Source: Bacteroidota bacterium
Lineage (GTDB): Bacteria; Bacteroidota; Bacteroidia; Bacteroidales; FEN-979
DNA: 40,279 nucleotides
Assembly: GCA_026391835.1 (NCBI GenBank)
Contig: JAPLDF010000024.1
Coordinates: 1-40,279 of the forward strand
Reading direction: 5' to 3'
Position 1 is the stretch's first letter. Every line of letters starts with the position of its first letter. The position numbers and the translations under genes were made by a program. Positions 13,312-39,227 of this stretch are shown piece after piece. Below the pieces are notes generated by a model. The model was not told where the DNA came from. It did not search any database and saw only the letters and a program-made list of their open reading frames with translations.

Positions 13312-13339
13312 TGGAGAAACCGGAACCACCTGCCACCCT
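13312..13339. repeat. Fragment of the 127-bp element (one end only)
   Basis: The sequence starts TGGAGAAACCGGAACC and continues to TGCCACCCT, matching the CCGG-type end of the full-length copies (TGGAAAAACCGGAGCC...TTGACCACCC, read from the complement of 13788-13913). The rest of the element is absent and the four-helix-bundle reading frame begins directly after it. Confidence 0.6.
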
Positions 13340-13345
13340 CTTGGA

Positions 13346-13696
13346 AAAGACGATTTAAAAGAGAGAACTGAACAATTTTCGCTTAGAGTGATGAACCTGG
13401 CAGAAGACCTTCCCCAGGGCAAATCGACGAGCGTTATTTCAAATCAAATCCTGCGGCCGGCAACCTCTGTTGGAGCAAATTACCGCTCTGCACGAGGAGC
13501 GAAATCAAAACGGGATTTTATCAATAAATTAAAAATAGTTGAGGAAGAGGCTGATGAAACACTTTATTGGCTTGGATTGATTCAACTGTCAGGAAAAATA
13601 AAGCCTGAGAAATTACGGGACCTGGTGAATAAAGCAACCGATTTGCTGGCAATATTTGTAGCGAGCATTAAAACGGCCAAGTTGGATTCCGGGTGA
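13346..13696 (+). pseudogene. Four-helix bundle (23S rRNA IVS-type) protein, start codon lost
   Basis: The reading frame encodes KDDLKERTEQFSLRVMNLAE, then ISNQILRPATSVGANYRSAR, DFINKLKIVEEEADETLYWL and IFVASIKTAKLDSG, the complete hallmark sequence of the S23/four-helix-bundle family (usually about 120 residues, found in 23S rRNA intervening sequences and scattered as stand-alone genes). The homologous frame reaches back to 13346, but no ATG, GTG or TTG precedes it in frame; the first possible starts are GTG 13388 and ATG 13391, which would remove about 14 residues of helix 1. The lost start coincides with the repeat fragment at 13312-13339. The role of the family is unknown. A shortened product from 13388 is possible. 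Confidence 0.75.
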
Positions 13697-13765
13697 AAAG
13701 TACGAGGTACGAAGTACAAAGTACAAACAAAAGTGGGAAGTACAAAGTTCGAAGGACGAACAAAG
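13697..13765. repeat. Cluster of short GTAC(G/A)AAGTAC-like repeats
   Basis: Directly after the four-helix-bundle stop there are five near-repeats of a 9-10 bp unit (GTACGAGGTAC, GAAGTACAAAGTAC, GAAGTACAAAGTTC). Each unit contains the palindrome GTAC. Similar clusters follow such genes in other genomes (from memory). They are too short and irregular for a CRISPR array. Confidence 0.55.
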
Positions 13766-13787
13766 GATGGGATTAGCTGGCCGTTGT

Positions 13788-13913
13788 TGGAAAGACGCTC
13801 GCTCTGACCAGCCTTCGCAGGAATAAACACACCAGCCCTGAGCATTGGTTGTAAATACGTTGGGGTGGTCATTAAAAATCGGCAGAAGGTGGTCAAGGGC
13901 TCCGGTTTTTCCA
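13788..13913 (+). mobile_element. MITE-like 126-bp element, copy B
   Basis: It begins TGGAAAGACGCTCGCT and ends GGCTCCGGTTTTTCCA, so the outermost bases are inverted repeats (TGGAAA/TTTCCA). Inside are the boxes GACCAGCC, GGTGGTCATT and GGTGGTCAAGG, spaced as in the other five full copies. No coding frame fits inside. The integrase stub starts at the base after its right end. No target duplication is visible. Confidence 0.7.
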
Positions 13914-14103
13914 GATGAATACCAAAACGATCAAGGATATCACAGGCCATAAAAAAGACAGTGTCTTTACCAAGTATGTGAAGATCTCCGAAGAGTTTAA
14001 GAAGCTGGAAATGGACAGGACGTGGGATAATATTCCTGGTCATCAAATTAAGAAAGCCCCGGATATTAAAAAATTTTCAGTTTCGCATCTGTTGGTTCCT
14101 TAA
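13914..14103 (+). pseudogene. C-terminal stub of a tyrosine recombinase (integrase)
   Basis: The frame reads MNTKTIKDITGHKKDSVFTK then YVKISEEFKKLEMDRTWD. This is the very end of a Bacteroidota tyrosine recombinase: the GHK carries the last catalytic His of the R-H-R-H set and TKYVKIS carries the nucleophilic Tyr. The rest of the catalytic domain and the DNA-binding N-terminus are absent; the homology begins exactly where element copy B ends. The tail after about residue 45 is no longer recognisable and overlaps the antisense Fic gene. It cannot recombine DNA on its own. Confidence 0.75.
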
Positions 14104-15022
14104 AAACATTAGATTTTTCTAGGAGGTCCTGCATAAAATTCATACTGCCTACTATGGTTTCCGAAAATTTATGTGCTTTGTCAAGCATCTTGATATATGA
14201 TTCAGGCTGTTTATCCCTTGATAGTTTTCTCAAGGTCAATAAATAATCTTCTCTGAAAACAGCCGGGATAATTATCCTGGTTTGATTCCTTGTCACAAAT
14301 TCAGCATTCATCATGATCCTTGAAATTCGTCCATTCCCATCCAAAAATGGATGTACTTCGCTGATCATAAACATTATAAAAGCAGCTTTGGCAAATGGAT
14401 GCACCAATGCATGATAATAATCGAAACCTTTAACCAATGTGCCTTTAACAAGCGTGTAATCAACAAAATGAGTTTCTCCTGCCCGGTTGTTCCTGTCTTT
14501 AAATTTTCCGGGATATTTAGAAGTCCTTGCAGCCAATAGTAATTTATGGCGATACTGTAAAATACCAAGTAATTCATCTGCGGAACCAGGGATAGTTTTC
14601 ATTTCCTCCTGGTTACTGACAATACTGTAGGTTGCCAGGATATCGTGTGAATCCTCATCACGTGTGGGTAAAGGAGTCGCCGTCTCAATAATTTTCTTTG
14701 CCTCTTCAATTTCAAAGATAGTGCCCTCAATGTAATTCGAAAAATAAGCTTCAAAGAATGCTAAGTTTTTAAATTCAGGATTCCTATTATTACGTTCCGG
14801 ACGATTGGCAAACTCTTCCTGTTTTAATTGAACAAATAATTTTTCAAATAATTCAATACGCTCAGGATCATAAGGGGAGCCCAGAACCCTTGCAATTGCC
14901 AGGGGGGAGGATAATATCTTAATCGAACGGGTGTTCAACATTGCACCTACCAGCTTATTTAGCTTCTCAAATTCGCTGTTCAGTTCAAGTTCTTTTGCAA
15001 TCGATCTTGCTTTGTCACGCAA
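14066..15022 (-). CDS. Fic domain protein (AMPylase core), remnant ORF of a longer gene
   Basis: An open frame of 318 residues with the complete Fic motif HPFLDGNGR (His224) and, upstream, SNYIEG (Ser95-Gly100), which fits the class II inhibitory motif (S/T)xxxE(G/N). Fic enzymes transfer AMP (or other nucleotides) to hydroxyl side chains of target proteins, and the inhibitory helix keeps them off. The first available codon is TTG at 15022, a weak start. The neighbouring upstream DNA still encodes, in another frame and with a stop, the N-terminal part that such proteins normally carry (see 15023-15444), so this ORF is the intact C-terminal two thirds of a damaged gene. Whether it is translated is open. 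It converges on the integrase stub. Confidence 0.8.
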   Translation of the reverse strand: MRDKARSIAKELELNSEFEKLNKLVGAMLNTRSIKILSSPLAIARVLGSPYDPERIELFEKLFVQLKQEEFANRPERNNRNPEFKNLAFFEAYFSNYIEGTIFEIEEAKKIIETATPLPTRDEDSHDILATYSIVSNQEEMKTIPGSADELLGILQYRHKLLLAARTSKYPGKFKDRNNRAGETHFVDYTLVKGTLVKGFDYYHALVHPFAKAAFIMFMISEVHPFLDGNGRISRIMMNAEFVTRNQTRIIIPAVFREDYLLTLRKLSRDKQPESYIKMLDKAHKFSETIVGSMNFMQDLLEKSNVFKEPTDAKLKIF

Positions 15023-15444
15023 CTCATTTAATCCTGTCTCACCTTTTCAATTTCCGGCAAGGTCAAAGTTTTCGAATCCGGTCCTGGTTTTCTGGCGGGC
15101 TGTAGGTTTTCAAGAACAGCTCTTTCCAATTGTGATTAGTAAAGGGTACCTACAAACTGTATATCTCCTTTAATTGGCCCGGTTCCTTCCTGAAAATGAA
15201 TTGTCAATCCAGGTAATTGGATTTTCCTGGTATAGGTATAAGTTAAAAAGATATTTCCCGTAACTGTTGGCTGGAATTCTATTGCAGACCGGTGACTTAG
15301 TATAGCCCCTGGATATAAATTTCCAAGAATATTGAATATGTTTCTTCTGATTATTGTCTCTGGCGGATCATTGAAATTCCCAGAATATATACGTGGAGAA
15401 ATTTTCCTGTGGATAAACCAGTCGCTATAACCAGTGTTTGTTGA
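15023..15444 (-). pseudogene. Decayed N-terminal (AbiEi-like) part of the Fic gene
   Basis: Reading the minus strand from 15444, the frame gives DWFIHRKISPRIYSGNFNDP, then AILSHRSAIEFQPTVTGNIF, LTYTYTRKIQLPGLTIHF, and GPIKGDIQFVGTLY. This matches the AbiEi-like N-terminal domain I know from long Fic proteins. It is broken by an in-frame TAA at 15136-15138, resumes as SQLERAVLENLQPARKPG and LTLPEIEK, then hits a second stop at 15028-15030. The Fic ORF continues in a different frame, so a small deletion/frameshift lies near 15040. The beginning of the domain (winged helix, about 60-80 residues) is missing upstream of 15444. Confidence 0.7.
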
Positions 15445-15475
15445 TCAAAACTGACCACCCTTGTGCCGGTGTAAA
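15443..15475 (-). repeat. Possible remnant of the 127-bp element
   Basis: The plus strand reads CTGACCACCCTTGTGCCGG, very close to the box GACCACCCTGTGCCGC of copy C (18662-18677). It lies exactly at the broken N-terminal edge of the Fic gene. The outer TGGA/TCCA end is not preserved, so a chance match within old coding sequence cannot be excluded. Confidence 0.35.
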
Positions 15476-15483
15476 AATCGGTT

Positions 15484-15651
15484 CGCGCCGCGGCATATTG
15501 ATCACTCCCTGCCAATATAAATTGACCTCTAAATATGTTTGATCAGGAATTGACATAGTTATTTACATACGACCGTCCACTGATGATTAACAGTATGGAT
15601 TTGTCAGGCAGGATATAATTTTGCTAATTTTTCTTTGCTAATTCTGGACTT
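15484..15651. other. Intergenic stretch without a supported gene
   Basis: Minus-strand reading near 15450-15540 gives a short protein-like run (GQFILAGSDQYAAARTDFY) that may be a scrap of another gene, with no start or end. Nothing else is recognisable up to the repeat at 15652. Confidence 0.4.
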
Positions 15652-15711
15652 AAATATCTATCCGTCAGCTCATCGTATATTTTGCGAAGGTGGTTGATTT
15701 TATTGAGGAAA
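15652..15711. repeat. 60-bp dispersed repeat, copy 1
   Basis: This segment shares about 80% identity by eye with 22756-22814, the longest exact block being CGAAGGTGGTTGATTT. It is non-coding and lies downstream of the PPOX gene, as the other copy lies downstream of two genes. It carries a GGTGGTTGA box like the 127-bp elements, but the rest differs. Confidence 0.6.
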
Positions 15712-15770
15712 TGGAAGATTCCTTACAAACCCATCCAACAGTTTAGACTATCCCTTTTTGAATGTCATGG

Positions 15771-16157
15771 TTATAACATTTGCTTTGCTGTTTCAACCGT
15801 GATTTCCAGTACCCTTGTGAGAAACGAAAATTTCTGTTTCATAAAATCATACTCGTCACCAGAACTGATATATCTGGCCGTACCATTGATAAGAAATCCT
15901 GTTCCCGGATAATCTTTATATCCCAAAACATTTTTACTCCCCAGTGTTAATTTCACCTTGTTATTCACATCAACATTCTTCTCGGTTTTTCTAAAACCAT
16001 AAGCAGGAATCAGGATACGCTCATCCTCGGTGACCACAAGATAGGAGTTCCATGTATTTGCAACATGCGTTTCGACACCCCACGATACAACCGATACAAC
16101 GCCTTCGTGTTGCAACACTTCTAAAAACTTTTCTGATAATATTTTATTTTCACTCAT
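15771..16157 (-). CDS. PPOX-type flavin-binding protein (pyridoxamine 5'-phosphate oxidase fold)
   Basis: A complete 128-residue single-domain protein. The start ATG at 16157 gives MSENKILSEKFLEVLQHEGV. Typical split-barrel features are present: VVSVVSWGVETHVANTWNSY, ERILIPAYGFRKTEKNV (the phosphate-binding strand with Arg and Lys), KVKLTLGSK and GTGFLINGTARYI. Proteins of this size usually bind FMN (or heme or F420 in other clades) as dimers and act as small oxidoreductases of unknown substrate. No neighbouring gene suggests a pathway. The gene looks undamaged although it lies next to the decayed Fic region. Confidence 0.85.
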   Translation of the reverse strand: MSENKILSEKFLEVLQHEGVVSVVSWGVETHVANTWNSYLVVTEDERILIPAYGFRKTEKNVDVNNKVKLTLGSKNVLGYKDYPGTGFLINGTARYISSGDEYDFMKQKFSFLTRVLEITVETAKQML

Positions 16158-16331
16158 GTTGATTTTTTAAAATTTGAGACAGCAGGTTCGTTGCACTCAT
16201 TCGGTTGCCGGTAACAGCACTGAAGAGGACAAAGATAAGGAAATTATCATTTTCACCGATTTCCATCCCCAATTCACCGGGGGTTCTCCCTGTTCAAACG
16301 AACATCTGTGTTCAAGCCCTCCCCTTCAACC

Positions 16332-16339
16332 TATCTTTG
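16332..16339 (+). promoter_or_regulatory. Possible Bacteroidota -7 promoter element
   Basis: TATCTTTG fits the Bacteroidota sigma-factor -7 consensus TAnnTTTG and lies 29 bp before the ATG of the small peptide gene. The -33 TTTG element is not clear, only TGTGTTC around 16307-16313. Confidence 0.35.
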
Positions 16340-16368
16340 CTTCATCAAACGATAAACAACAATAAAAA

Positions 16369-16599
16369 ATGAAAGCAACAACAACAATCTTAGCAGCAGT
16401 TCTGACCCTCTCAATGAATGTTCTTTTCGCCAGCAATGACGGCGCCGTAATGAATAGTGAAACCAATTCATTCCACATTTCACTGGCACCCGTTACACCT
16501 GCCGAAGCAACGTTTGAAGAGATGAATGATGCAACTGCAACTGCTTTCATTCTTGCTCCTGTTACGCCCTCTGTTGCTGATTTTTCAGACGGGATCTAA
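16369..16599 (+). CDS. Small secreted peptide with duplicated LAPVTP motif
   Basis: A 76-residue protein with a signal peptide (MKATTTILAAVLTLSMNVLF, cleaved near AS). The mature peptide of about 55 residues contains the same motif twice: LAPVTPAEATFEEM and LAPVTPSVADFSDG. I recall small Bacteroidota proteins with this repeated LAP(V/A)TPxEATFE signature, usually stand-alone and of unknown function. The mature part is acidic and Pro/Thr-rich, without Cys. The gene has its own candidate promoter and a good hairpin terminator (16630-16654), so it is a monocistronic, probably well expressed unit. Signalling peptide, surface coat component and anti-stress role are all open. Confidence 0.7.
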   Translation: MKATTTILAAVLTLSMNVLFASNDGAVMNSETNSFHISLAPVTPAEATFEEMNDATATAFILAPVTPSVADFSDGI

Positions 16600-16629
16600 A
16601 CTCAAAACATAACTTGTATTGCGTATTTA

Positions 16630-16654
16630 AGCCGCTCCGAAAGGGTGGCTTTTT
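16630..16654 (+). terminator. Rho-independent terminator after the small peptide gene
   Basis: AGCCGCTC pairs with GGGTGGCT (two G-T pairs) across a CGAAA loop, and a TTTTT run follows at once. It lies 30 bp after the stop codon. Confidence 0.75.
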
Positions 16655-16739
16655 ATATTGCGGACAAAACGGAACCACTGACCACACAGTGCCGGTTTGC
16701 CGAGTCCCTTGAATGAATCAGAAAGCGAAATCCCCGGCT

Positions 16740-18642
16740 CTATCTATGTATCATGATCTCCTTTGAAATAATGCCACCAGGGGTTATCGCCTGCAGGAAA
16801 TAGATCCCGGCCGGAAGATTGAATACCGGTATCCTGATCTTATCCAGCTGCTGACACGGCTCAATAGTTATCAAATCCCGGCCTTCAACTGCAGCGATCC
16901 TGATCAGCGAAGGCCATTGTGTCGGATTTGCAGGTGCAACATTTATATAATCGTTTGCAGGGTTGGGATAAACAGTAAATGAAGCCTGCCCTGGCGCGGA
17001 AATCCCAATCGGGCTCTGCTGTATGTTCAGCACAAGATTGTAGGTCCCTGTTAACCCGGTAAATTCGGGTCCAACTTCGAAAATTACGGTTCCTCCGTTT
17101 ATCAGTGTAATATTACCAGGGGCCTCACCTTTGTATACAGGGGATCTTGGATTCCCACTTACAGAATCGGTCCAGATCGCATTCAGGGTGTAGTTTCCTG
17201 GCCCCGGATTATGACCGGCATCGTCCACCCGTGCTGCGATTGAATAGGAATGTCCCTGGGGAAGCGTGATCTTGTAGAAATCATAGTCTGTTCCTGTGTT
17301 ACAGTTGGCTCCCTGGGTACTTACCGTCGCTGTATTCCCGCTGAAATTCACACCAGGATTAAAGGCTTCGGCCAGGGAGTTGTTTGGTTCGAACGGATCG
17401 GCATTGAGGAGTCCCTGTTGTACGATAACAAAGATTGGATTCGGGTAGTTCGTGGAACCGGCCAGTGACCAGGACGAACCATTATTTGCAAAGTATTGCA
17501 GGGCCATCAGGTAAGTTCCCGGTGGGGCAACCAGGTTCGGATTTGTAAACGTCAAACCATTCGAAAAATGGTACCCGGCTGGGAGGTTCATCCCGGTTAA
17601 TTGCTGTACTGTTGCCACGGCATAACCATCCATATCATAGAGGGAAACGTCTAAGGTCCCAATGAAATCAGCCACCCCACCGTTGGTCACATCCAGGTGA
17701 ACAGTTACCGGCTGGCCTGATGTCAGCGTAGTACCCGGAGTTACAGTCATCGCGGCATACAGTTCCATGGAGTTTGGATTGACAACCTGCAGCTGGATAA
17801 AATTGAAATAGCTCTGGTAATTGCCCACAATCATCCAATTTCCACCTGTAGCTTTGTAATATGTGGCAATATAATAGGTTCCGGGCAGAAGCGTGAATTT
17901 TCCGGGATAGTTGAAGGTTGTTGAATAAAAATACCCGGAATCATAGGACACATTCGGAATGCTGTCGACAAAATCGACGAAGTCATAGTTCGAATTAAAA
18001 ATTGCCGCGCAAATGGTACCATGGAAATTACCCGGTCCGAAATTAGCGATATCAGTGCTTACTGTGAATGGATCCCCATAACCAATGGAAGACGCAGTGA
18101 TGTTCAGGTTGGAATAGAGGGACAGCCCATACGCCTGGTTTCCGCCTCCTCCGCCGCCTCCATTACCCCCCTGGATACCGAAAATCGCCTGTTGGCCGCT
18201 ATTGAATCCCCCGGTACCGCCACCTATTCCTATGCCTTCCGGGTTCAATGCGTTGATGTTGAAATAACCATCAAACTGACCCTGCCATCCCCAGTTAAAA
18301 TGAAACATTCCGTTGTTGTCATAGCCGTCGCAAACAAAGCAATGTCCTCCTCCACTGCCAAATCCTGCATAAATAAGTGGCCGGCCTGCATCGAGATCGG
18401 TTGTCATCATATTTTTCCAGGTAGCATCAGTAAAATTCTGCCGTACCTGTCCGTTGAGTGTTGCCGGGTATCCGAAATAGGTTTTGAGTGCATATTCCGC
18501 GCAATTTGTAACGGGACTTTGCGAAGAGACAACATACGCGCTGCTTCCTCCTGCCTGGGCAGTGCCATAGGTCATATTCACACTGACTCCGCATTGGAAC
18601 ATCAGGGTTGCGATTGCAGAATTCGGGCCATTGAGCACAAGC
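16740..18642 (-). pseudogene. C10 family (streptopain-like) peptidase, N-terminus and catalytic Cys lost
   Basis: The open frame (about 632 residues from a GTG at 18638) begins inside the peptidase domain. What remains matches the second half of streptopain: GVSVNMTYGTAQAGGSSAY, the catalytic His in GGGHCFVCDGYD (codon 18342-18344), HFNWGWQGQFDGYFNINALN and the Gly-rich end. The signal peptide, propeptide and the first half with the nucleophilic Cys are missing. Behind it are Ig/CARDB-like domains, a PPC-like domain (NTGTDYDFYKITLPQGHSYS) and a T9SS sorting tail (FTVYPNPANDYINV ... SKEIMIHR). The homology stops at the border of element copy C, whose end is at 18643. It cannot be an active protease and has no signal for export. 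Confidence 0.85.
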
Positions 18643-18769
18643 TGGACAAACCGGAGCCACCGACCACCCTGTGCCGCTTCAGCGTGACCATCGTATTAGA
18701 CTGATAATAATTCACTTAAAGTGGTCAACTTAAAACAGGGTGAGGTGGACGATCTGTCCGGCGTGTCCA
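18643..18769 (-). mobile_element. MITE-like 127-bp element, copy C
   Basis: It starts TGGACAAACCGGAGCC and ends GCGTGTCCA. Internal boxes are CGACCACCC (18661-18669), AGTGGTCAACTT and AGGTGGACG. It is the most diverged full-length copy and lies in the opposite orientation to copies B, F and G. Its CCGG end abuts the beheaded C10 peptidase; its other end is 22 bp from the sulfatase stop. Confidence 0.6.
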
Positions 18770-18790
18770 TTAATCAACACGACCAAAATA

Positions 18791-21208: not shown

Positions 21209-21573
21209 AGTTTTAGGTTTAAATTGATACTAAATGTAAAACAATGAACCTTTTCATAAGCAAAGATAATTAATGTTGTACCCTTTTCTGCGGTTAAACT
21301 AAGAATTTTCCAGGGATCAAATAAAAAAAGTTACCTGGTTTAACTGAACAAAACATCTAACCGCCGAACTGGTCAGCCTGGAATTCTTGTCGTACCTGGA
21401 TCATCAGGAAATACGTGTTGAATTAGCATTTATAGATGATATCGATCCCGTACCCGGTTTCTCCAGCATGCCCACAGTCCGTGTCAGCACCAGATGTTAT
21501 CTTTTCAGGGTAATTTTTCAGTCGAAAAAAATGATACCGGATAATTTTGCAGCACAAATCCAGTGTAAACTTT
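21209..21573. other. Divergent intergenic region between the sulfatase and the split T9SS gene
   Basis: About 365 bp that should carry the sulfatase promoter leftward and the promoter of the gene starting at 21574 rightward. Two overlapping open frames cross it on opposite strands, neither with recognisable features. Confidence 0.45.
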
Positions 21574-21630
21574 ATGAAACGAATAGTATTATCACTTATG
21601 GTTATCCTCACCATGGGCCAGTTGCCAATG
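21574..21630 (+). pseudogene. Signal-peptide fragment of the split T9SS gene
   Basis: The ATG at 21574 opens MKRIVLSLMVILTMGQLPM, a typical Bacteroidota secretion signal, and is cut exactly where element copy F begins (TGG at 21631). Reading on into the element gives WKTRSN and then a stop. The sequence after the element (21758 onward) encodes the C-terminal half of a secreted T9SS protein without its own start, so this is very likely the start of the same gene. Confidence 0.65.
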
Positions 21631-21757
21631 TGGAAAACACGCTCGAATTGACCATTCTTCGCCGGACTAAAGTGACGCAACCAGAGGACTGATAGTTAAT
21701 AACTTGGGGCAGTCAACCAAAATCGGCGGAGGGTGGTCAGGGGGTCTGGCTTTTCCG
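21631..21757 (+). mobile_element. MITE-like 127-bp element, copy F
   Basis: It begins TGGAAAACACGCTCGAATTG and ends GGTCTGGCTTTTCCG (a TCCA end with its last base changed). Internal boxes are TTGACCATTCTTCGCCGG, GGCAGTCAACC and GGGTGGTCAGG. Orientation is as copies B and G. It separates a signal peptide from the body of a T9SS protein. Confidence 0.7.
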
Positions 21758-22635
21758 CATTATCAAGAAGCACCTTCAGCTGCAGTGATATCGGCAGTGT
21801 GCCCGTTACACTCACGGTGACCGATAATGCAGGCCACAGTGCATCCTGTACCACAACGGTCATGGTCGTTGGCGAAATCCCGGCCTGTTCAATTACAGCC
21901 ATTCCGGGAAGTGGTGCCTTTACAGGCGGCCCAGCCACGACAATTTACCTGGGTTACGGCCCGCAGTCTGTTAAGCTGCAGAGTACAGTCACAGGCGGGA
22001 GTGGTTTCCTTTATGCATGGAGTGGCCTTTCAACCGGCATGCTGAGCTGCACCGATTGTGCAAGCCCGGTTTTCACACCAGCATCGGAGGGAAAGTATGA
22101 ATTTACGCTGACCTCTACAAACAGCAACGGCTGTACAACATTCTGTTCAATAACCATCTGTGTGTTTGACGTGAGGGTTCCGGGAACAAACGGCAACAAG
22201 GTATACCTGTGCCATTTACCACCGGGAAACCCTGGAAACCCACAAACACTGTCCATCAGCGTGAATGCAGTACCGGCCCATATCCCCGGTCACACAGGCG
22301 ATCAGCTTGGACATTGCGGCCAGTCATGCGATCTCCTTGGCATCAAGTCGGGAGAGGTAGCAGGGGAACTGGTTGGGACTGAAAGTACAGATTTCAACCT
22401 CGTTATTCGTCCAAATCCTTTCAGGGATGAGATAACCATGACCGTGGAAAGCGAACGTTCAGATCCCGCAACACTCACCGTGTATGAAATGACCGGGAAA
22501 CTGGTTGGAAAAGAAATGTCAGTCAACCCGAATGTGCCGGTAACGTTCGGTTCAGAATTGACGAGCGGTATGTACATGGTGTTTGTCAAACAAGGCGACC
22601 AGGTGCAGAAGATCAAAATTATCAAGACAAAATAA
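21758..22635 (+). pseudogene. Body and T9SS tail of the split secreted protein
   Basis: From the end of copy F the frame encodes about 290 residues: the end of an HYR-type domain (STFSCSDIGSVPVTLTVTDN), an Ig-like domain (SVTGGSGFLYAWSGLSTGM is read at the middle; SCTDCASPVFTPASEGKYEF), a conserved KVYLCHLPPGNPGNP segment found before sorting tails, and a T9SS tail (LVIRPNPFRDEITMTVESER ... KIKIIKTK). No start or signal peptide belongs to this part except codons inside the element (GTG at about 21733). The original protein probably held more HYR repeats that are now gone. A short translated form cannot be secreted. Confidence 0.75.
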
Positions 22636-22680
22636 ATCTCTTTTTGTCAGTACACATTGAGAACCCAATCGGGCAGGAGG

Positions 22681-22715
22681 AAAATAAAACAGGAGGAAAA
22701 CCTGTTTTATTTTTC
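22681..22715 (+). terminator. Hairpin terminator after the split T9SS gene
   Basis: AAAATAAAACAGG (22681-22693) and CCTGTTTTATTTT (22701-22713) form a perfect 13-bp stem with loop AGGAAAA, followed by more T. With A and T runs on both sides it can work in both directions, here also for nothing facing it directly since the gene at 22842 ends 130 bp further on. Confidence 0.85.
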
Positions 22716-22755
22716 TACTGCTCATTTGCATTTTGACTGGTATACTACCCTGACG

Positions 22756-22814
22756 AAATATCTGACCGCCCGTTCATCGCAGATTTTACGAAGGTGGTTG
22801 ATTTATTGAGTAAA
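22756..22814. repeat. 60-bp dispersed repeat, copy 2
   Basis: Matches 15652-15711 over its full length (AAATATCT, TCATCG, ATTTT, then CGAAGGTGGTTGATTT, ATTGAG). It lies between two convergent genes. Confidence 0.6.
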
Positions 22815-22841
22815 ACGAATATTCTGTAATTAACAGAGGAG

Positions 22842-24041: not shown

Positions 24042-24135
24042 ATGTTAATATTAATTTTTTGATTAAGCGCTATTATACCAGTAGGTACCATGCTGACTTT
24101 TTCTGCCTGTAAAGAGGCTGTTAAAAGTATTTTAT

Positions 24136-24244: not shown

Positions 24245-24500
24245 GACTATTGAAACAGCCTCCTGATAACCCAATTATCAGTAATAAATGTTTATTGGTA
24301 TGGTTGCGATCAATCATATTATTTTTTTTACAAATCGGTCATATGGGGTATCCATAATTATCATTTATGGTTTGCATGAACCTTGCTCCTATGGATATTT
24401 CATGTAATATAAACAGGTTCAATCGAAGTCAAAATTAAACTAGTTTTTATTCCATATAAAGATATTCTTTTAAAAGAAAAGTCTGCCCATCTCATTTAAT

Positions 24501-24552
24501 TGATAGTTAATATTATAAGCTGTTCAACCAGAACCGGCGGAAAGTAGTTGGT
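24501..24552 (+). repeat. Decayed core of the 127-bp element
   Basis: TGATAGTTAATATTATAAGC and then GTTCAACCAGAACCGGCGGA follow the core of copy F (TGATAGTTAATAACTTGGGG, AGTCAACCAAAATCGGCGGA) base for base with scattered changes. Both ends are lost. It lies 37 bp after the flavin reductase stop. Confidence 0.55.
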
Positions 24553-24588
24553 TTTAATGATGAAACAGAACGATTACAAATCATCAAC

Positions 24589-25167: not shown

Positions 25168-25214
25168 GATTTACCTTTTAGATTGATTGCATTTTACCTG
25201 AAATCTGACCACAT

Positions 25215-25266
25215 CATATTGTTGATTGTTAAAAGATAAGACTGTCAATAAAAATCGGCAAGGTTA
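25215..25266 (-). repeat. Decayed remnant of the 127-bp element
   Basis: TGTCAATAAAAATCGGCA (25244-25261) equals the core of copy B (GGTCATTAAAAATCGGCA) but for two bases, and the preceding TTGATTGTTAAAAG is similar too. The outer end and the second GGTGGTCA box are gone; the tail reaches the stop codon of the tube gene. Confidence 0.45.
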
Positions 25267-25722
25267 TTATTTTTCACGGGTTGAAAAGGAATAGGCGAAT
25301 TCAATGGATTCAACCAGGATGTCATTGTTGGTTGAATTGAATTCATCGACCGACCATTTTACCGGGTATACATCCTTAAACCGCCACATTGAGAGTACAT
25401 CCTCCTTGTCATTCTTCAGATGAACCAGGATTGTTTTGGGTTCGATAGGCGTTGACGGATCACCCTGCAGTGTTTTTGCCAGGTTGGACTCCCGGGCGAT
25501 CAAACCACTTTTACATACCAGGTTTCCATGCTTTAAGCTTTTCGGAGCAATATGAACATCGCTGTTCAAACCACCCTCTTGGATGGTTTCGGTAGTGATT
25601 TCAATTGCAATGCCTGATATTTCCCGGAACCCTATATCCGGTTTACTCCCAGGTTTGATGACCTCGCCGGGAAACTGAATCGTGAAATAAAAGGAGGGTT
25701 GTGTTGTCTCGTATAGTTTCAT
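25267..25722 (-). CDS. Orphan contractile-tail tube protein (gp19-like, eCIS/phage type)
   Basis: A 151-residue protein from the ATG at 25722; a GTG at 25737 would add five residues. The order of segments follows the gp19-like tail-tube fold: FYFTIQFPGEV, then DIGFREISGIAIEITTETIQ (the 'GFxEVSGL' strand), LKHGNLVCKSGL (the 'ITLKRG' strand), TILVHLKNDKEDVLSMWRFK, DVYPVKWSVDEFNSTNNDIL and VESIEFAYSF (the 'VESMELAHE' strand). In phages and extracellular contractile injection systems this protein stacks as hexamers into the inner tube. None of the usual partners (sheath, baseplate, LysM spike adaptor, ATPase) lies in the window. It is intact, and both sides carry remnants of the small mobile elements. 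A relict or a solitary domesticated tube protein is inferred. Confidence 0.75.
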   Translation of the reverse strand: MKLYETTQPSFYFTIQFPGEVIKPGSKPDIGFREISGIAIEITTETIQEGGLNSDVHIAPKSLKHGNLVCKSGLIARESNLAKTLQGDPSTPIEPKTILVHLKNDKEDVLSMWRFKDVYPVKWSVDEFNSTNNDILVESIEFAYSFSTREK

Positions 25723-25848
25723 CAAAAGTTCTTTCACATTACATGGTTAATCCCGGGTTATGCAATGAATTTCACAACTGAGTTAAAATTTGCTTAAAGG
25801 CATTACCTTAGCGTCACAAATGCAATCATCCAAAAAGTGAACGTACTA

Positions 25849-26063
25849 TTACCTTGCGAATATACTGATAAAAAGATGTCGCCATGGGGCTGTGTAAGAT
25901 TGATCAAAGAGTTTTATGATCGGGTCGGCTTGCTGGATAAACCAGTCCTGACTTCTGACATTTAGTGCGGTATACCGCGAAGTAAGAAGTACTTTTACCC
26001 CGGTATCCAACTTAGCTGTTTTAATGCACGCTGCAAATATTCCCAGCAATTCGGTTGCTTCTT
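25849..26063 (-). pseudogene. C-terminal relic of a second four-helix bundle protein
   Basis: Directly inside element copy G the frame reads KEATELLGIFAACIKTAKLD then TG, which corresponds to NKATDLLAIFVASIKTAKLD of the copy at 13346-13696. The first three helices are missing. The native stop has mutated and the frame runs on for about 45 non-homologous residues; its DNA just after the end still shows a GTAC-type repeat (AAAAGTACTTCTTACTTCG). The truncation point is the element border. Confidence 0.7.
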
Positions 26064-26190
26064 TGGAAAAAACGCTCGATTCGACTTGTCTTCGCCGGAA
26101 TAAATTTACCCCACCAGAGCATTGATGGTTAATAATCTGAGGTGGTCAAACAAAATCGGAAGCGGGTGGTCAAGGGCTCCGGTATTTCCA
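26064..26190 (+). mobile_element. MITE-like 127-bp element, copy G
   Basis: It begins TGGAAAAAACGCTCGATTCG and ends GGCTCCGGTATTTCCA. Internal boxes: GACTTGTCTTCGCCGG, GAGGTGGTCAAAC and CGGGTGGTCAAGG. It is close in sequence and orientation to copies B and F. It lies between the four-helix-bundle relic and the 3' end of the next gene. Confidence 0.75.
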
Positions 26191-27947: not shown

Positions 27948-27967
27948 TTCAAGGAACTATTCCTGGT

Positions 27968-34100: not shown

Positions 34101-36205
34101 GGTACAGGATTCGCCGTGTTGTTGAGTAAAAACTGGTTGGGTTTCAGATTGCTTATCCCCGTGAAAAACGGACAGGCATAAACGGCATGGACCTCCTTCC
34201 CTGTAGCAGCCTGCCAGTCTGCCAGGGTGGCACAACTGGTGGCATAATACCTGCCGACACGCCCGGCACCGCTCCAGTAACCATTGTAATCCAGGTCCAG
34301 CGCAGGCATCGAATAGGCAACCACCGCGCAGTACCCTGCCAGGCTGCTGAAGATGTTGTTCTTAACTGTAATGTTCGCACCGCCGGAAACATAGAATGCC
34401 CTCGAATTCTCATCTTCGCTGCAATTGTTGATGTTATTGAAGACCACCCTGGTATTGGACGGATAGTTCAGCGATATCCCTGTCATGTTGCCGGCTCTCA
34501 TCGTTATGTAATTGTTCGCTATGGTACAGTTCGACGCCGAGGATGCAATCCCGGTATTTGGGACAGAGTCAATCCTGTTTCCTGACACCGTGAAAGGACC
34601 AGGCCCGGTAATGTTAATACAAGTTTTTGCCCCCCTGACCTGGTTGTTTAGAATGCGGATCGAGTCGCCGGCAATGTTGATCCCGAAATTATCGTAGGTG
34701 ATAAAATCCCTGATGATATTGTTCCGGATGGTGATGTTCGTCATGTAATAAGGCGACGAAGTATATTGCTGAATGATCCCTTGTTGAAGATACGACTCAA
34801 TCCGGTTATTCTCGATCAGGATATCCCGGCCTCCCCCCTCAAAATAGATCGCCCGGTCGTTGGTATAGGATCTCCCCATGATGAGGTTGTTTTTGATGGT
34901 AACATCGTGTGTTCCGTGCGCCATGCGGATGATGTAACTCCTGCCCTCATCCATCCGGCAACCGGAAATCGATATATGGCCGGCGGTGTTGAAAATATAA
35001 AACTCACCATGCGTCGTGATCTTTTTAACAAAAATATGGCTGACGTTGTTGATGGCAAACGAATTTGACAGGTATGGAACCTGGATGACAACCTTGGTAC
35101 TGTCGCCCGATTCAGATTTGATCGTCAGGGTGTTGGTGGCAGAGAGGCCCTGGATATCCATCAGGATAAACCCTTCGGTGTAGGTTCCGTTCCTGAGGTT
35201 TATTGTTGAGGGACATAGGATACCGGCCGCCGAGAGGTAGCCCACAGCGGATCCGATGGAGGGAAAGGTGGGGTTGGTCCCTCCTACCGTGACAATCCCG
35301 CACAAGGCTGCCTGTTTCGGCGACGCAATTGTATCATTGAAGTGGTAGGGATCGGGAATGCCGTTGGGATTGACTGTCCAGGCCTTTACCTGGTATACTG
35401 TATTCGGGGCAAAGGTAAACGATCCGATCGTGACATTGCTGATCGAACCACCCCTGGGCAGGTTCCCCGTCCACGAAAACGGTGGTTTTGCGACCCCGTT
35501 GACACTCCACTGAATGGTGGCGGAGGTGAGTGCCTGGTACCCGAAATTGGTAACAGTTACCGCGACGTTTTTTGGACCTGCTGCAAAGGGGGCTGCTGGC
35601 TGATCAAGGTTGGATATGCCCGCATCCACGCCAAGCGGGGAATATACCTGGATGTTGTCGATCTCCCAGTAACCCTCGCCGCTGCCCTCCCACTGAAACC
35701 GGACCTTTGCCGAATCGTTCCCCGCACAGTACGGGGTCAGATCCACGATTTCATGCCTGGGGTTGGTTGCTGTCGTAGTTGTAAACGAGGTCACTTCCTG
35801 CCAGCTCTGTCCGTTGAATGCCATGATTTTACCCGCAGCGCCGGCACCGGCTTTGAAATAGTGATCAAGAAAGAGGAGGCAATAGGACCCGGCGGCCCCG
35901 TTAAACAAAGGTGTTTCGAGGGCTGCCACTTCATTGCCCGCACCGGGCGGGTAATACCCTGCATCAAAGATAGCAAAGGGCGCGGTTATGGGGTAACCGG
36001 AGGGCTTGTTTCCCGGGTTGTCGAAATGCCATTTGTCTGCCGATGACCCGGTGATCACCAGATTGTTCCAACCTGCCGGTGGAGTGGTCTGCACAGCCGA
36101 TTGAAAATCTTCGTTCAGCAGGTAGATCTGTCCATATGCGAATGAATCCGCGATCACGATCATCAGAATGAACATGAAGCGATACTGGAGTGTTGCAGGT
36201 TTCAC
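28109..36205 (-). CDS. Giant T9SS-sorted adhesin-like protein
   Basis: About 2698 residues from the GTG at 36205 (MKPATLQYRFMFILMIVIAD is the signal peptide); an ATG at 36175 lacks a basic n-region, and the frame further upstream runs into element D, so neither is preferred. Order: a MAM/jelly-roll-like domain (LNEDFQSAVQTTPPAGWNN ... YWEIDNIQVYSPLG), a CARDB-like domain, three beta-helix modules (about 300-725, 835-1255, 1370-1810), each opening with CG(I/T/V)xTxGGxxPxF and closing with PDIGAxEF followed by a CARDB-like linker, three PKD domains (YTWNFGDGG, YDFGDG, WQWNFGDP), five Ig-like repeats (xYNWDVTGG, YQWTVPPGA, YTWNISQGG, YQWVLTGGG, YIWSLPPGA) and a T9SS tail (ISLYPNPTRGMLTLDL ... 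YCWKIVKE). It should be displayed or released as a long filament-like adhesin or polysaccharide-binding protein. No enzyme motif was seen. Confidence 0.9.
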   Translation of the reverse strand: MKPATLQYRFMFILMIVIADSFAYGQIYLLNEDFQSAVQTTPPAGWNNLVITGSSADKWHFDNPGNKPSGYPITAPFAIFDAGYYPPGAGNEVAALETPLFNGAAGSYCLLFLDHYFKAGAGAAGKIMAFNGQSWQEVTSFTTTTATNPRHEIVDLTPYCAGNDSAKVRFQWEGSGEGYWEIDNIQVYSPLGVDAGISNLDQPAAPFAAGPKNVAVTVTNFGYQALTSATIQWSVNGVAKPPFSWTGNLPRGGSISNVTIGSFTFAPNTVYQVKAWTVNPNGIPDPYHFNDTIASPKQAALCGIVTVGGTNPTFPSIGSAVGYLSAAGILCPSTINLRNGTYTEGFILMDIQGLSATNTLTIKSESGDSTKVVIQVPYLSNSFAINNVSHIFVKKITTHGEFYIFNTAGHISISGCRMDEGRSYIIRMAHGTHDVTIKNNLIMGRSYTNDRAIYFEGGGRDILIENNRIESYLQQGIIQQYTSSPYYMTNITIRNNIIRDFITYDNFGINIAGDSIRILNNQVRGAKTCINITGPGPFTVSGNRIDSVPNTGIASSASNCTIANNYITMRAGNMTGISLNYPSNTRVVFNNINNCSEDENSRAFYVSGGANITVKNNIFSSLAGYCAVVAYSMPALDLDYNGYWSGAGRVGRYYATSCATLADWQAATGKEVHAVYACPFFTGISNLKPNQFLLNNTANPVPGILYDIDSVLRNPIMPDIGAKEFALCSPDAGISQITSPQAPLLPGVQEVRAILQNQGEVNLSSVTIRWSVNGISQPAVPWTGMLLPGAMTGIILGNYNFLSTTTYEVKAWTENPNGMPDCNPLNNISGTPVFYPKMCGTFTIGGAGPDFNSITEALTHLVKGGISCPVTFLLRNNTYTDQIVLGNVSGASPVNTITFQSESGDSSAVYINASISLSLAGAQYMRFRGIHFEGASIANSYDIKLLNCWMSGYNTTCNVSNSLHVLIDRCYLKRTSFSEQALSISSCSNFSVTNSCIENGLVTDKNGYTCQNLLVKNCTVNFITITRYNNVDILNNRILVNHIDTYYPNRQTGIYGVGVNFNIMNNRVIINSAAESYTGITGEFTNSTIGNNYITGSGIFQQTGIDLTGGTNTSLFFNTINLLQDLPGSRAIRIRSTPNIILKNNIFSLMGNGIAADISGMDTTGITLDYNDYFSISGKIGTFGGNVFTTFSAWQNRMGGEQHGFNLNPFIASAVIPLPGQVQLNNAGIPVTGVLYDIDSTLRNPVNPDIGAREFSPCMADAGINAIVAPVSPFNGSQAEVRMVLQNQGTEILTSVTLQCRINGVNQPPVSWTGSLAGSDTAIVSLGSYPFVTGVNRLRAWTRDPNNGTDCNHANDTAAQKSVYPLLCGVYTIGGSNPDFVKLSDAVEVLNNTPINCSITFRFRNGVYPEPFALYGVEGSSALHTITFGSESSDSASVVIAQPPTLTPYPGTISLLGQNFVTIRALTVKSVNYSTGVWIEGAHDINISHCYLYPNTPQNAYVSQSIKIVNSSVVRVDSNNLRNAFYGLLLEEVTNLSCRGNVLGNFHYGLCAGVYTQEMSYDNLLFDNNIISQTPVGLYLFITESDSITIRKNLMRNLETGIQFYQMTNSHPWLVVEQNQLLNITNEGFHIYYSGTFWNSNSLVNGWIRNNFIHTCGGNITKGISLNGAKKINVSFNSLNNRSTNALSAALFLNVSDSITARDNIFSSVGGGYCCYFQTAPTRSFMDYNNYYSGSARFGCINGVNYPSFASWKSAIGGEASGKNIQPYFASDTSFHVYQRHLNGAGVPIPGITRDVEGDLRNVSSPDIGADEFKVDFGITEVLHPSGECVHPAGEHVTVRIRQLGDIPYNTIPLAYSVNGGTPYSQTIGGWVFGDTVFAFTPVINFSVAGTYVIKCWMTGNFDDNIGNDTLTVTRGSSPSPVPDFTWQHSCAGDLTAFSGTASIVPPYSVAEYTWNFGDGGVDSIQNPVHSYASPAIYTVAMRAYSNMGCYSEKTHTVQVAPGPMASFTALAENCSNSPVLFDDNSTIAVGSIASWIYDFGDGVTDTIVPPASPDVSHSYAASGTYQAVLTVTAADGCRSFDTAVVVIEKKPGAGFNNSFPACVGLPVMFTDTTVLNGSGPGISWQWNFGDPASGVSDTSSLQNPSHLFSVPGNFLVTLIVIAGGCPDTATAGILAGALPQPTISGPSSALVNTTALYSTEAGMLEYNWDVTGGMIFTGGGTSTVTVSWTSPGTQSICVNYSNPAGCEGFVPTCQAVEVQALPGASGIITGIAEVCRKTYGVVYSVDSIPYATTYQWTVPPGAVIATGSGTNAITVDYTGMALSGDVIVQGINANGMGLPSPVFPVIVNPLPVPSILGSDSACAGSASNIYVTENGMAGYTWNISQGGVITAGQGSDTIHVTWNDPGKRGVTVTYTSTAGCPAESPTCKIIVVNPLPFPSISGENNPCEGNDPVGYHTEFGMTGYQWVLTGGGTITSGQGTPRVFITWSVPGVHTIGVNYVTPAGCTLSQPVFNEMTVKPLPEQAGAITGSDTVCRGDAGVHFRVAGIPNASEYIWSLPPGAEITDGYFTPEILVNFSDTASSGNISVYGINDCGEGRISQLFPLVVEGCTGIPEHPGTGISLYPNPTRGMLTLDLTRVPSGSTVNVRVFNILGVEIMSRLFRSSGTHSISLEHQVAGVYEVVVSGDGRSYCWKIVKE

Positions 36206-36321
36206 AATTACGATTTTTGAAGAAGCCAATGGAAAATGTAAACCAGAAATCGAAATTTCGAAAATGTAATGGAAAAAACGAATAAATATACGGATTCTGA
36301 AGCAGGAAGTCAAGAGGTAGT

Positions 36322-36448
36322 TGGAGAAAACGGTCACGCTGACCACCTTCCGCCGATTTTAATTGACCACCCTGCAATCTTAAAAATCAAAGAGGTGAGG
36401 CGGTAAAGTTGCTCTCGCAGAGGCTGGTCAATGTTAGCGTTTTTTCCA
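36322..36448 (-). mobile_element. MITE-like 127-bp element, copy D
   Basis: It begins TGGAGAAAACGGTCACGCTG and ends GTTAGCGTTTTTTCCA. Boxes: CTGACCACCTTCCGCCG, TTGACCACCC and GCTGGTCAATG. It is about 90% identical by eye to copy E (39101-39227) and in the same orientation. It lies in the upstream region of the giant gene. Confidence 0.8.
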
Positions 36449-36533
36449 CATATTGGTCAGGTTGTTTGGCATAAATGATTATATTAGTAGGCTATTTGAG
36501 CCCATTATAAGCATTTATGCTTTTCGAAGGGAA

Positions 36534-36590
36534 GGAAAAAATCAAGTAAGAGGGGTGGTCAGTTTGCGCCGTTTGGGGCTGGGCCGTTGC
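36534..36590 (-). repeat. Decayed half of the 127-bp element
   Basis: AATCAAGTAAGAGGGGTGGT then CAGTTTGCGCCGTTTGGGGC and TGGGCCGTTG follow the right half of copy E (ATCAAAGAGGTGAGGTGGTC AAGTTGCTCCGGCGGAGGC TGGTCAATG, given in parts). It lies between copy D and the next gene, possibly within its leader. Confidence 0.5.
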
Positions 36591-36615
36591 AAGCAAAACG
36601 TGATGGGCAAGGTTA

Positions 36616-36623
36616 AAGGGAGA
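36616..36623 (+). promoter_or_regulatory. Ribosome binding site of Shine-Dalgarno type
   Basis: AAAGGGAG lies 4 bp before the ATG at 36628 region of the Ycf48-like gene. Purine-rich sites of this strength are uncommon in Bacteroidota, where leaders are mostly A-rich without a Shine-Dalgarno. Confidence 0.45.
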
Positions 36624-36627
36624 TAAC

Positions 36628-39045
36628 ATGAAAAGAATCATCCTTATATGTTTCGTGTTGCTTAGTTGCTATTCAGCATTTCCCCAGTGGAAATGGCAAA
36701 ACCCCTTGCCCCAGGGGAATGGACTCTTCTCCGTTTATTTTATAAATGCTGACACAGGATTCGCTGTTGGCCGTGGCGGAACAATATTGAAAACAACGGA
36801 TGGAGGGCTGAACTGGACGATATACTCAAGCGGGCATGACAATTGGTTAACTTCAGTGTGCTTTACCAGCCCCGACACCGGATACGTGGCAGGTAGTGGT
36901 TATACAGGCGGGATCATCTTAAAAACCACCGATGCAGGTGCAACCTGGACCACGATCTTCAGCGGAACAAACAACCCGTTAACATCAGTTTTTTTCCTGA
37001 ATGCCAATACCGGATTCGCGGTGGGTGGATCAGGTTCTGTTTTTAAAACCGACAATGCCGGCTTAACCTGGACAGATCTGTCAATCGATTATTTTTATGA
37101 TCTTGAATCCGTTTTCTTCACAGGTGACAGCACAGGCTATACCGTTGGGAGTGGTCATGGCGAAATTTATAAAACCACCAATGGGGGCACAACCTGGGAT
37201 ACCTTATCGGGCGGGACGATCATGCCGCTGAAATCAGTGTTTTTCACGAGCGCTGATACAGGTTATGTTTGTGGAATGTATGGCAGTTTGTTGAAAACCG
37301 TGAATGCGGGAACCACCTGGATGTCAGACACAAATGGATTGGGCTCAAATTCTATGTTTAATTCCTATAATTCAATTTACTTTTCCGATGCCAACAATGG
37401 TTATATTGCCGGTTCGGGATCTCTGGAAGGCGGGGTAGAAGTAAACTTTTTTACAACGACAAACGCAGGGGAAACGTGGACCCCAAGATCGAATGAATCA
37501 TTTGACGACTTAACCTCTGTTTTTTTCACTGGCGCAAATACCGGCTATGGGGTGGGCCAGGCCGGTAAAATCGTAAAAACCACCAATGCCGGTATGACCT
37601 GGACACCATTATCCAGGGGAACAACCCAGGAATTGACTTCTGTTTACTTTCCCGACAGCATTACCGGTTACGCAGTGGGTTACATACTCGGGGCAAATCA
37701 CGACGCTGCTCAGAGCATCATGAAAACAACCGATGGCGGGAAGAACTGGGTAAATTTACCCAACGCGCCCAACGATGATCCTAACTTTTATTCAGTTTTT
37801 TTTACCGATGTCAATACCGGGTATGTGGTTGGTGGTAATTTTGGGATTATCTATAAAACCACGAATGGCGGTGCGTCCTGGATTTCTTTGGATTGCGGGA
37901 CAATCGAGCGGTTGAGTTCGGTTTTCTTCACGGATGCCAATACCGGTTTTGCAGTGGGAAACATCCCCTTTACGGACACGGTTACCGTAATCCTGAAAAC
38001 AACCAATGCAGGTCTGACATGGACAAAAACCACGACACCCTATTATTTAAACTCCGTTTACTTTCCCGATTCAACGATTGGGTATGCCGTGGGGTTTGAT
38101 CACCATACATACAATGGCGTCATCCTGAAAACTTCCGATGCCGGCGCCACCTGGAACACATTAAAGAAAAATGTTTCCAATACACTGACTTCCGTTTACT
38201 TTACCGATGACAGCACGGGATACACGGTGGGGTTCTCCGGCATCATCATGAAAACGAGCGATGGGGGCGCTACCTGGAAGAATCAATCCAGTGGTATGAA
38301 TGAACTGTTAAATTCGGTTTTCTTTCCTACAGTCAACATTGGTTATGCAGTAGGCTGGAATGGTACTATTTTGAGGACGATGAACGGGGGTACAACCTGG
38401 ACTTCCGACCCGAGTATAGTAGCAGTTTCTTTAAATTCCGTTTTTTTTACCGATTCCATTACCGGTTATGTGGTTGGCTACGATGGGGCCATATTAAAAA
38501 CAGGACATGGGGGTGCGCCATTCTTAGAAGTATTGCCAACCAACCGGGATGTCGGTCCACATGCCGGGGCAACAAACTTCACTGTATCCTCAAACACAAA
38601 CTGGAAGGTTACCTGCGACTCGTCCTGTTGCACTGCAACACCCTCCGGATCAGGTAACGATACTATTTTTGTCGCTTATACGGAAAACACTTCAACGAAA
38701 TCCAGGGTGGACACCATCCGGGTCTTTGCGCCGCAACAACCAACAATTTTACAGAAGATAACTGTAACACAGGCAGGATTGAATGGTATCGAAAATATCG
38801 GGTATGGTACTTTTCGGATTTATCCTAACCCGGCAACTGATATGATCACCATTAAGGTTACCCGCAACCAATTTAAGGACAAGACTGTGAGCATTTATGC
38901 AATAAGAGGAGAACTGGTTAAATATTATCAATTCCGGAAGGATCATCAGGTGGAAATTGATGTCAGAAATATGGTGCAGGGGATTTATTTAGTTAAATTG
39001 CAGACAGATTCGGAAATTGAGGTTCAAAAACTGGTGATTCAATAA
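36628..39045 (+). CDS. Ycf48/BNR-like beta-propeller protein with BACON domain and T9SS tail
   Basis: An 805-residue secreted protein with a signal peptide (MKRIILICFVLLSCYSAF, cut near PQ). Fourteen tandem repeats of about 43-50 residues follow, each of the type SVFFTDxNTGYxVGxxGxIxKTTNxGxTWT; they form one or two beta-propellers of the Ycf48/BNR-like kind. Then comes a BACON-like domain (AGATNFTVSSNTNWKVTCDS) and a T9SS sorting tail (FRIYPNPATDMITIKVTRNQ ... EVQKLVIQ). In Bacteroidota such proteins are cell-surface or released; carbohydrate or protein binding is likely, and no photosystem function is implied. The gene is bracketed by element copies D and E in the same orientation. Confidence 0.9.
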   Translation: MKRIILICFVLLSCYSAFPQWKWQNPLPQGNGLFSVYFINADTGFAVGRGGTILKTTDGGLNWTIYSSGHDNWLTSVCFTSPDTGYVAGSGYTGGIILKTTDAGATWTTIFSGTNNPLTSVFFLNANTGFAVGGSGSVFKTDNAGLTWTDLSIDYFYDLESVFFTGDSTGYTVGSGHGEIYKTTNGGTTWDTLSGGTIMPLKSVFFTSADTGYVCGMYGSLLKTVNAGTTWMSDTNGLGSNSMFNSYNSIYFSDANNGYIAGSGSLEGGVEVNFFTTTNAGETWTPRSNESFDDLTSVFFTGANTGYGVGQAGKIVKTTNAGMTWTPLSRGTTQELTSVYFPDSITGYAVGYILGANHDAAQSIMKTTDGGKNWVNLPNAPNDDPNFYSVFFTDVNTGYVVGGNFGIIYKTTNGGASWISLDCGTIERLSSVFFTDANTGFAVGNIPFTDTVTVILKTTNAGLTWTKTTTPYYLNSVYFPDSTIGYAVGFDHHTYNGVILKTSDAGATWNTLKKNVSNTLTSVYFTDDSTGYTVGFSGIIMKTSDGGATWKNQSSGMNELLNSVFFPTVNIGYAVGWNGTILRTMNGGTTWTSDPSIVAVSLNSVFFTDSITGYVVGYDGAILKTGHGGAPFLEVLPTNRDVGPHAGATNFTVSSNTNWKVTCDSSCCTATPSGSGNDTIFVAYTENTSTKSRVDTIRVFAPQQPTILQKITVTQAGLNGIENIGYGTFRIYPNPATDMITIKVTRNQFKDKTVSIYAIRGELVKYYQFRKDHQVEIDVRNMVQGIYLVKLQTDSEIEVQKLVIQ

Positions 39046-39100
39046 TTCTATTGGTAAAACGAAGATAACCAAGCCCGTAACATGGCGCTGAAATGCACCA

Positions 39101-39227
39101 TGGAGAAAACGGTCACGCTGACCACATTCCGCCGATATTGATTGACCACCCTACAATCTTAAATATCAAAGAGGTGAGGTGGTCAAGTTGCTCCGGCGGA
39201 GGCTGGTCAATGTTAGAGTTTTTTCCA
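39101..39227 (-). mobile_element. MITE-like 127-bp element, copy E
   Basis: It begins TGGAGAAAACGGTCACGCTG and ends GTTAGAGTTTTTTCCA, with boxes CTGACCACATTCCGCCG, TTGACCACCC, GAGGTGGTCAAGTTGCTCCG and GGCTGGTCAATG. It is the best-preserved copy: the box plus spacer GGTGGTCAAGTTGCTCCGG is of the kind repeated at ends of IS21-family elements (from memory). Confidence 0.8.

Follow-up and report, generated by a model that had tools for sequence, protein, structure and literature searches.

A 127-bp repeat family with IS21-type ends in a Bacteroidales genome, probably a miniature IS21 derivative

Mini-element copies in the window and in other genomes

The window analysed here is the whole stretch of 40,279 nucleotides from contig JAPLDF010000024.1 of a Bacteroidota bacterium assembly (GCA_026391835.1; Bacteroidales, FEN-979). 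It carries six copies of a gene-free repeat of 126-127 bp, referred to below as the mini-element, together with shorter pieces of it and a relic of an insertion sequence (IS) of the IS21 family. The following features were placed, with E values from an nhmmer model built from the six copies, except for the IS21 relic.

13312..13342, - strand: possible one-end fragment of a mini-element, borderline (E 0.015)
13788..13913, + strand: mini-element copy, 126 bp (E 4.9e-34)
15409..15527, + strand: relic of a true IS21 left end, distinct from the mini-element (86% identity over 119 bp to the L116 IS21, E 1e-35)
16662..16699, - strand: one-end fragment, tip plus first box (E 1.4e-5)
18643..18769, - strand: mini-element copy, 127 bp, the most diverged, with CCGG-type tips at both ends (E 2.5e-28)
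21631..21757, + strand: mini-element copy, 127 bp (E 3.6e-34)
24484..24548, + strand: partial mini-element (E 1.5e-7)
25202..25260, + strand: partial mini-element (E 1.2e-5); the corresponding copy in genome G002 retains the right tip
26064..26190, + strand: mini-element copy, 127 bp (E 2.9e-35)
36322..36448, - strand: mini-element copy, 127 bp (E 9.7e-35)
39101..39227, - strand: mini-element copy, 127 bp, 91% identical to 36322-36448 (E 2.2e-35)

A sequence-only reading had proposed the six long intervals as a family of nearly equal length, and they did align end to end over 126-127 bp (127 columns; E 2.5e-28 to 2.2e-35), copies outside the window being the real test of a model built from these six. 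Pairwise identity among the six was 53-77%, with the exception of the 36322/39101 pair. The same reading had assigned ACGCT to one end and CCGG to the other, which was correct for the copies at 13788 and 26064 and failed for the other four, which paired ACGCT with TCTGG (21631), ACGCT with ACCG (36322), ACTCT with ACCG (39101) or CCGG with itself (18643). Among the short pieces it listed, 24501-24552 and 25215-25266 were recovered by the partial matches given above, 13312-13339 was borderline and 36534-36590 was unsupported (E 0.42), while 15443-15475, taken as a possible mini-element piece, fell inside the IS21 left-end relic. No match to istA or istB was obtained in the window (best E 0.70). 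Target duplications were absent at the six window copies, as had been noted by eye.

The genome (5.35 Mb, 86 contigs) contained no fewer than 28 full-length places, the six window copies included, full length meaning 115 or more model positions at E < 1e-3; this count is a lower bound, with 150 of 1142 first-look candidates scored. Sixteen of these places lay on two contigs amounting to 2.6% of the genome (binomial p 1e-18, an optimistic value, as the model was built from six of them). The length was fixed, being exactly 127 bp in 57 of 82 end-to-end matches and 126-127 bp in 73, a set in which some loci overlap and a few copies are counted twice. The bodies were 50-75% identical in 2033 of 2485 copy pairs, and the centre (about positions 58-69, ATTGATTGTTAA) was conserved among copies.

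The distribution of the repeat was then established in 61 genomes of the order, where full or partial matches (E <= 1e-3) were present in 31 of 37 members of the window's family and in two of 24 others. Of 393 genomes drawn evenly across the order, 17 matched at E <= 1e-6, including four members of the window's family. Genome G237, belonging to another family, carried six full-length copies within about 14 kb of contig C2. A DNA pattern for the right half matched 45 stretches in named genomes (42 Bacteroidales, Bacteroidetes or Bacteroidia metagenome-assembled genomes, one Flavobacteriales and two Alphaproteobacteria), mini-elements and full IS21 ends being unsorted among them; one of the matched records, SACF01000001.1 (L228), is titled Alphaproteobacteria, and this title may be wrong. 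The copy at 26064-26190, the sole one tried, had no match in the plasmid and phage collections. Two genomes of different genera, G018 and G025, shared contig sequence 99.8-100% identical around one element (L041, L208), probably a binning mix-up.

Ends shared with IS21 elements

IS21 elements with both ends were taken from the genomes of relatives. IstB (PF01695) was found for all five (L106, L107, L108, L114 and L116), and Mu-transpos_C_2 was found in the IstA of L106, L107 and L116, with rve below the cut-off in two. The motif TGACC starts 19 and 43 positions from the left tip alike in the mini-element, L106, L107 and L114, and GGTCA lies 42 and 18 from the right tip alike in the mini-element, L106, L114 and L108; the exceptions were L107, whose right end has GGTCA at 65 and 18, and L108, whose left end has no TGACC. 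The start of the model (position 1) coincided with the left tips of the L106 and L107 elements, and its end (position 127) with the right tip of L107. The suggested resemblance of the internal boxes to IS21 end repeats was thus borne out, the positions matching those of intact IS21 elements exactly. In tip-aligned, ungapped comparison, the left half of the mini-element agreed with the left end of L107 at 41 of 55 positions, with that of L116 at 39 and with that of L106 at 38, and the best of 2000 shuffles of any of the three reached 28 of 55. The box positions, together with a left-end identity above that of shuffles, support the proposal that two IS21 ends were joined and the genes lost. The conserved centre and the fixed length argue that the fused form itself spread, as had also been suggested, rather than arising anew each time. 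The mini-element shares TG...CA tips and at least two boxes per end with the five IS21 elements; in contrast to them, it is without istA and istB, measures 127 bp versus 2.6-2.7 kb and shows a target duplication in one of 71 copies.

A possible IS21 partner was detected at contig ends. Seven contigs of the window's genome ended in the same ~139 bp, corresponding to the left end of the IS21 of genome G009 (L116), and two contigs began with the right end of an L116-type IS21, as judged by eye in comparison with the ends of L116. IS21 ends at contig ends are explained by a collapsed multi-copy IS. The body of the L116-type IS21 was missing from the assembly, in which a search for istB yielded three matches, all weak or partial. 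The window relic corresponds to the left end of this L116-type multi-copy IS21, at 86% identity.

Flanks, target duplications and accessory islands

For most of the tested copies, the two flanks are not neighbours in relatives. The flanks of 24 copies of the window's genome were joined without the element and searched in 43 genomes of the family, a match counting as spanning when it covered 20 bp or more on each side of the joint in some genome besides that of the window, as read from tables by eye. In these searches and in the control searches six candidates per genome were scored and the matches listed are a lower bound, such that a spanning match may have been missed. Among the matches listed, none of the 24 joined flank pairs was spanned, compared with 8 of 21 element-free intergenic control windows from the same stretches (21 of the 24 intended could be placed; Fisher p 0.0009). 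The eight spanned controls included two of a repeated 23S_rRNA_IVP-like gene and one with a tRNA-Val gene; when these three doubtful windows were removed, 5 of 18 were spanned (p 0.010). At 12 of the 24 joints, again among the matches listed, a one-sided match in another genome ended no more than 10 bp from the joint. In both G002 and G014, the left flank of the copy at G000:C15 8517 reached the exact element edge; beyond it G002 carries no element, and in G014 a different element fragment is found close by. The G013 copy L033, compared with element-free G000:C9, showed TGG on both sides and nine extra bases. For the G014 copy at L127 5352, the flanks were separated by 12 bp in G029, and 31 and 51 bp were absent next to the element. 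Within the window, the left edge of 26064..26190 adjoins the broken end of a truncated relative (25945-26064) of the 23S_rRNA_IVP gene at 13388-13696 (Pfam), and 25989-26060 repeats 13632-13703 at 88% identity. The right edge of 13788..13913 adjoins the C-terminal part of a tyrosine recombinase gene, an intact form of which is present in G028 (family assigned by Pfam of the G028 relative).

Target duplications were sought beside single copies, at offsets and split between copy pairs. In 71 non-redundant copies with exact tips, an exact 5-bp repeat was found once (CTTAT at G015:C28 7091-7217), and exact flanking repeats of 3, 4, 6, 7, 8 or 9 bp were found in none. Read in the orientation of the element, the left tip of this copy is TGGATATGCC, identical to the right tips of the L107 and L116 IS21 elements. 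Flank identity over the 71 copies was 0.25-0.27 for 4-, 5- and 8-bp repeats, with no excess over chance; in simulation, a duplication that had diverged by 20% per side gave an identity of about 0.61-0.65, at which repeats of these three lengths would stand out. None of the 17 copies with a partner at least 90% identical had a repeat longer than 2 bp. Repeat halves of at least 5 bp split between copies of the same contig were absent from 258 direct and 261 inverted pairs, and 4-bp split repeats occurred in two of the 258 direct pairs, with 1.2 expected. As for the IS21 elements themselves, L106, L107, L114 and L116 were without a duplication and L108 showed 5 of 6 matching bases, with tips set by eye. 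Weak base preferences were evident outside the tips of the 71 copies, with A at -2 in 47% and A at -15 in 49% (both flanks pooled).

The element-rich stretches of G000, G002, G014, G015 and G029 shared blocks of 0.6-1.7 kb, mostly at 85-94% identity, in differing order. The ten genes scanned in G000, G014 and G002 included those for Fic, IPTL-CTERM, phosphatidylserine decarboxylase, a sodium/proton exchanger and secreted proteins. Island gaps with an element continued in relatives in 0 of 43 cases versus 22 of 78 element-free gaps, a contrast that was set aside, as it came mostly from operon gaps. Solo tips gave six hits (two being one locus) versus two in a reversed-sequence control. Among them, G013C250 28367 has a 46-bp tip-box/box-tip form, G002C204 15563 a tip-tip scar and G017C275 3695 a tip ahead of another copy. 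The right tip varied nearly independently of the body (correlations of -0.03 to 0.15), in comparison to 0.57 between the left tip and its adjacent box; this decoupling may reflect tip exchange or fast-changing spacer bases. By sequence similarity, parts of tyrosine recombinase genes adjoined two different elements of one genome, at 13915-14046 of the window and near 7608 of G000:C6. Elements were also joined three times in one genome to the same stretch with short tandem motifs (~225-625 bp matched), at L072 8319-9972 and L070 7294-7416 among others.

Interpretation and neighbouring features

We consider it probable, at roughly 0.6, that this repeat family is a miniature, non-autonomous derivative of IS21 mobilised in trans, with DNA often lost or exchanged on one side. 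Each copy would consist of the outermost left and right ends of an IS21 element, two boxes each, fused as a 127-bp unit without istA and istB, and this unit would have multiplied as such. The boxes would most likely be bound by IstA, and the unit moved in trans by the IstA and IstB proteins of resident IS21 elements, whose own ends share the box layout. Insertion would often not be simple, with one side retaining its former neighbour and the other losing or exchanging its DNA, so that the resulting joint lacks a target duplication. The IS21-type end layout, the fixed length, the spread, the scarcity of duplications and the one-sided flanks were observed; movement in trans, and deletion or rearrangement linked to the transposase as the origin of the joints, are inferred. 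According to the excerpts used of the cited papers, the IS21-family element ISPve1 of Paracoccus had inserted simply, flanked by 8-bp repeats, in 7% of clones, and together with a deletion of 0.5-4.5 kb on one side in 16% (PMC3281130), IS21 tandems cause deletions by intramolecular transposition (PMC9330008), and each IS21 end has at least two repeated elements (PMC11208146). From these three sources we infer, by analogy, that a similar mechanism may act on the mini-element.

Several results weigh against this explanation. Target duplications were nearly absent, whereas published IS21 insertions normally make one. When 121 element hits (overlapping loci included) were compared with all fetched loci, two, the copies at L033 and L127 5352 described above, had their flanks close together elsewhere without the element; these two and the single 5-bp repeat among the 71 copies are what ordinary insertion gives. 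The right end of the mini-element agreed with IS21 right ends at 29-34 of 55 positions and was thus less alike than the left end. None of the IS21 elements compared had both tips of the mini-element type, and the exact parent IS was not found among them. The left tip of the multi-copy IS reads TGGATAAACC, unlike the mini-element tip, so that another IS21 may be the true parent. Deletions were absent with the other IS21 elements described in the excerpt of PMC3281130, including an isoform 99% identical to ISPve1. When gaps of at least 100 bp were considered, none of 43 with an element and 1 of 40 without one continued in relatives; since non-operon, element-free gaps are about as broken, the islands are unstable in any case, and their turnover accounts for some of the effect. 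The elements may be driving this turnover, resulting from it or both.

The absence of duplications could also be a secondary state, in which an ordinary IS21-derived miniature inverted-repeat transposable element (MITE) inserted with target duplications that were later separated by inter-copy recombination, deletion and gene turnover in unstable islands. The clustering of the copies on 2.6% of the genome would supply many recombination partners, some tips look exchanged between bodies, the islands are mosaic at most gene borders, and both the repeat at G015:C28 and the two hits with closely spaced flanks are as expected of such an element. We nevertheless regard this history as unlikely, though worth keeping in view: one repeat in 71 copies is little, the 17 copies with a close partner yielded nothing above 2 bp, no same-contig pair held the two halves of a repeat of 5 bp or longer, and bodies that are mostly 50-75% identical are poor substrates for homologous recombination. 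Reordered blocks with several ends at element edges, the recombinase gene parts beside two copies of the window's genome and an array in G237 in which all six full-length copies share one orientation would all suit an integron-like recombination site, with the element ending a gene cassette and a tyrosine recombinase shuffling the cassettes. The polarity suggested by the G237 array was gone over 90 copies, with gene 3' ends towards the left tip in 41 of them and towards the right tip in 54. In addition, no recombinase was seen tied to the arrays that were annotated, hairpin covariation was weak and the boxes are explained by the IS21 end layout, which leaves an integron-like site very improbable.

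Retention as an ERIC-like intergenic repeat with an RNA or terminator function was evaluated from folding and position. Nine folds were computed, for the + strand of all six window copies and the opposite strand of three, and seven of them scored better than shuffles (z -2.4 to -6.8). Copies lay close to gene 3' ends (median distance 61 bp, n=77) and further from 5' ends (median distance 184 bp, n=77). Pairing was 82.0% versus 80.8% in row shuffles, an excess that is real (reached by 0 of 500 shuffles) but so small that the inverted boxes explain nearly all pairing. RNAalifold returned no consensus pairs in the 71 copies, 26064-26190 folded no better than shuffles on either strand, and no Rfam match was obtained in the window at the gathering score. 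Selection for such a function is therefore, in our view, a distinctly unlikely explanation.

As far as the excerpts used go, the mini-element resembles IS-derived bacterial MITEs (PMC3189936, PMC2229807, PMC11578231) in being shorter than 300 bp, with terminal inverted repeats, no gene, many copies and a mostly intergenic location. It differs from those described in its IS21 parent and in the near absence of duplications, which are listed for several MITE families (PMC2229807); MITEPye1, for instance, is tied to IS1182 (PMC11578231). The ERIC/IRU repeats of enterobacteria, as presented in the excerpt of PMC2229807, likewise measure 127 bp and are imperfect palindromes in intergenic DNA; they are set apart by description, having a target duplication and TA ends, in contrast to the TGGA tips and IS21 boxes found here. 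ISPve1 shares with the mini-element an IS21-type insertion that often leaves a one-sided deletion; unlike it, ISPve1 is a full-length autonomous IS whose simple insertions carry 8-bp repeats (PMC3281130, in the part used). No IS21-derived miniature was found in the excerpts of PMC3189936, PMC3281130, PMC9208149, PMC11578231, PMC9330008 and PMC5756416, a mostly open-access literature with ISfinder outside its scope.

IS21 works with end boxes in tandem and with an AAA+ helper (PMC11208146, in the excerpt used). The mini-element is a natural 127-bp substrate with two boxes per end and may represent the minimal pair of IS21 ends. Should the joints arise through transposition itself, the elements would offer a ready test of how IS21-type deletion or exchange of neighbouring DNA reshapes accessory islands. 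A bolder and rather doubtful extension is that mini-elements and resident IS21 machinery form a dispersed gene-shuffling system, in which reactive end pairs join unrelated segments and rebuild Bacteroidales accessory islands per transcription unit.

Further features were observed in the window besides the copies. A strong inverted repeat at 39258-39316 lies beside the copy at 39101; G002:C173 and G015:C508 contain stretches that resemble it. Another dispersed repeat, ~70 bp long and situated at 24337-24413, has many copies in the genus. A T4 gp19-like tail tube protein is encoded at 25267-25737, between a partial element and the sequence that adjoins that element in G002, and a related open reading frame was located at G000:C15 10123-10602.

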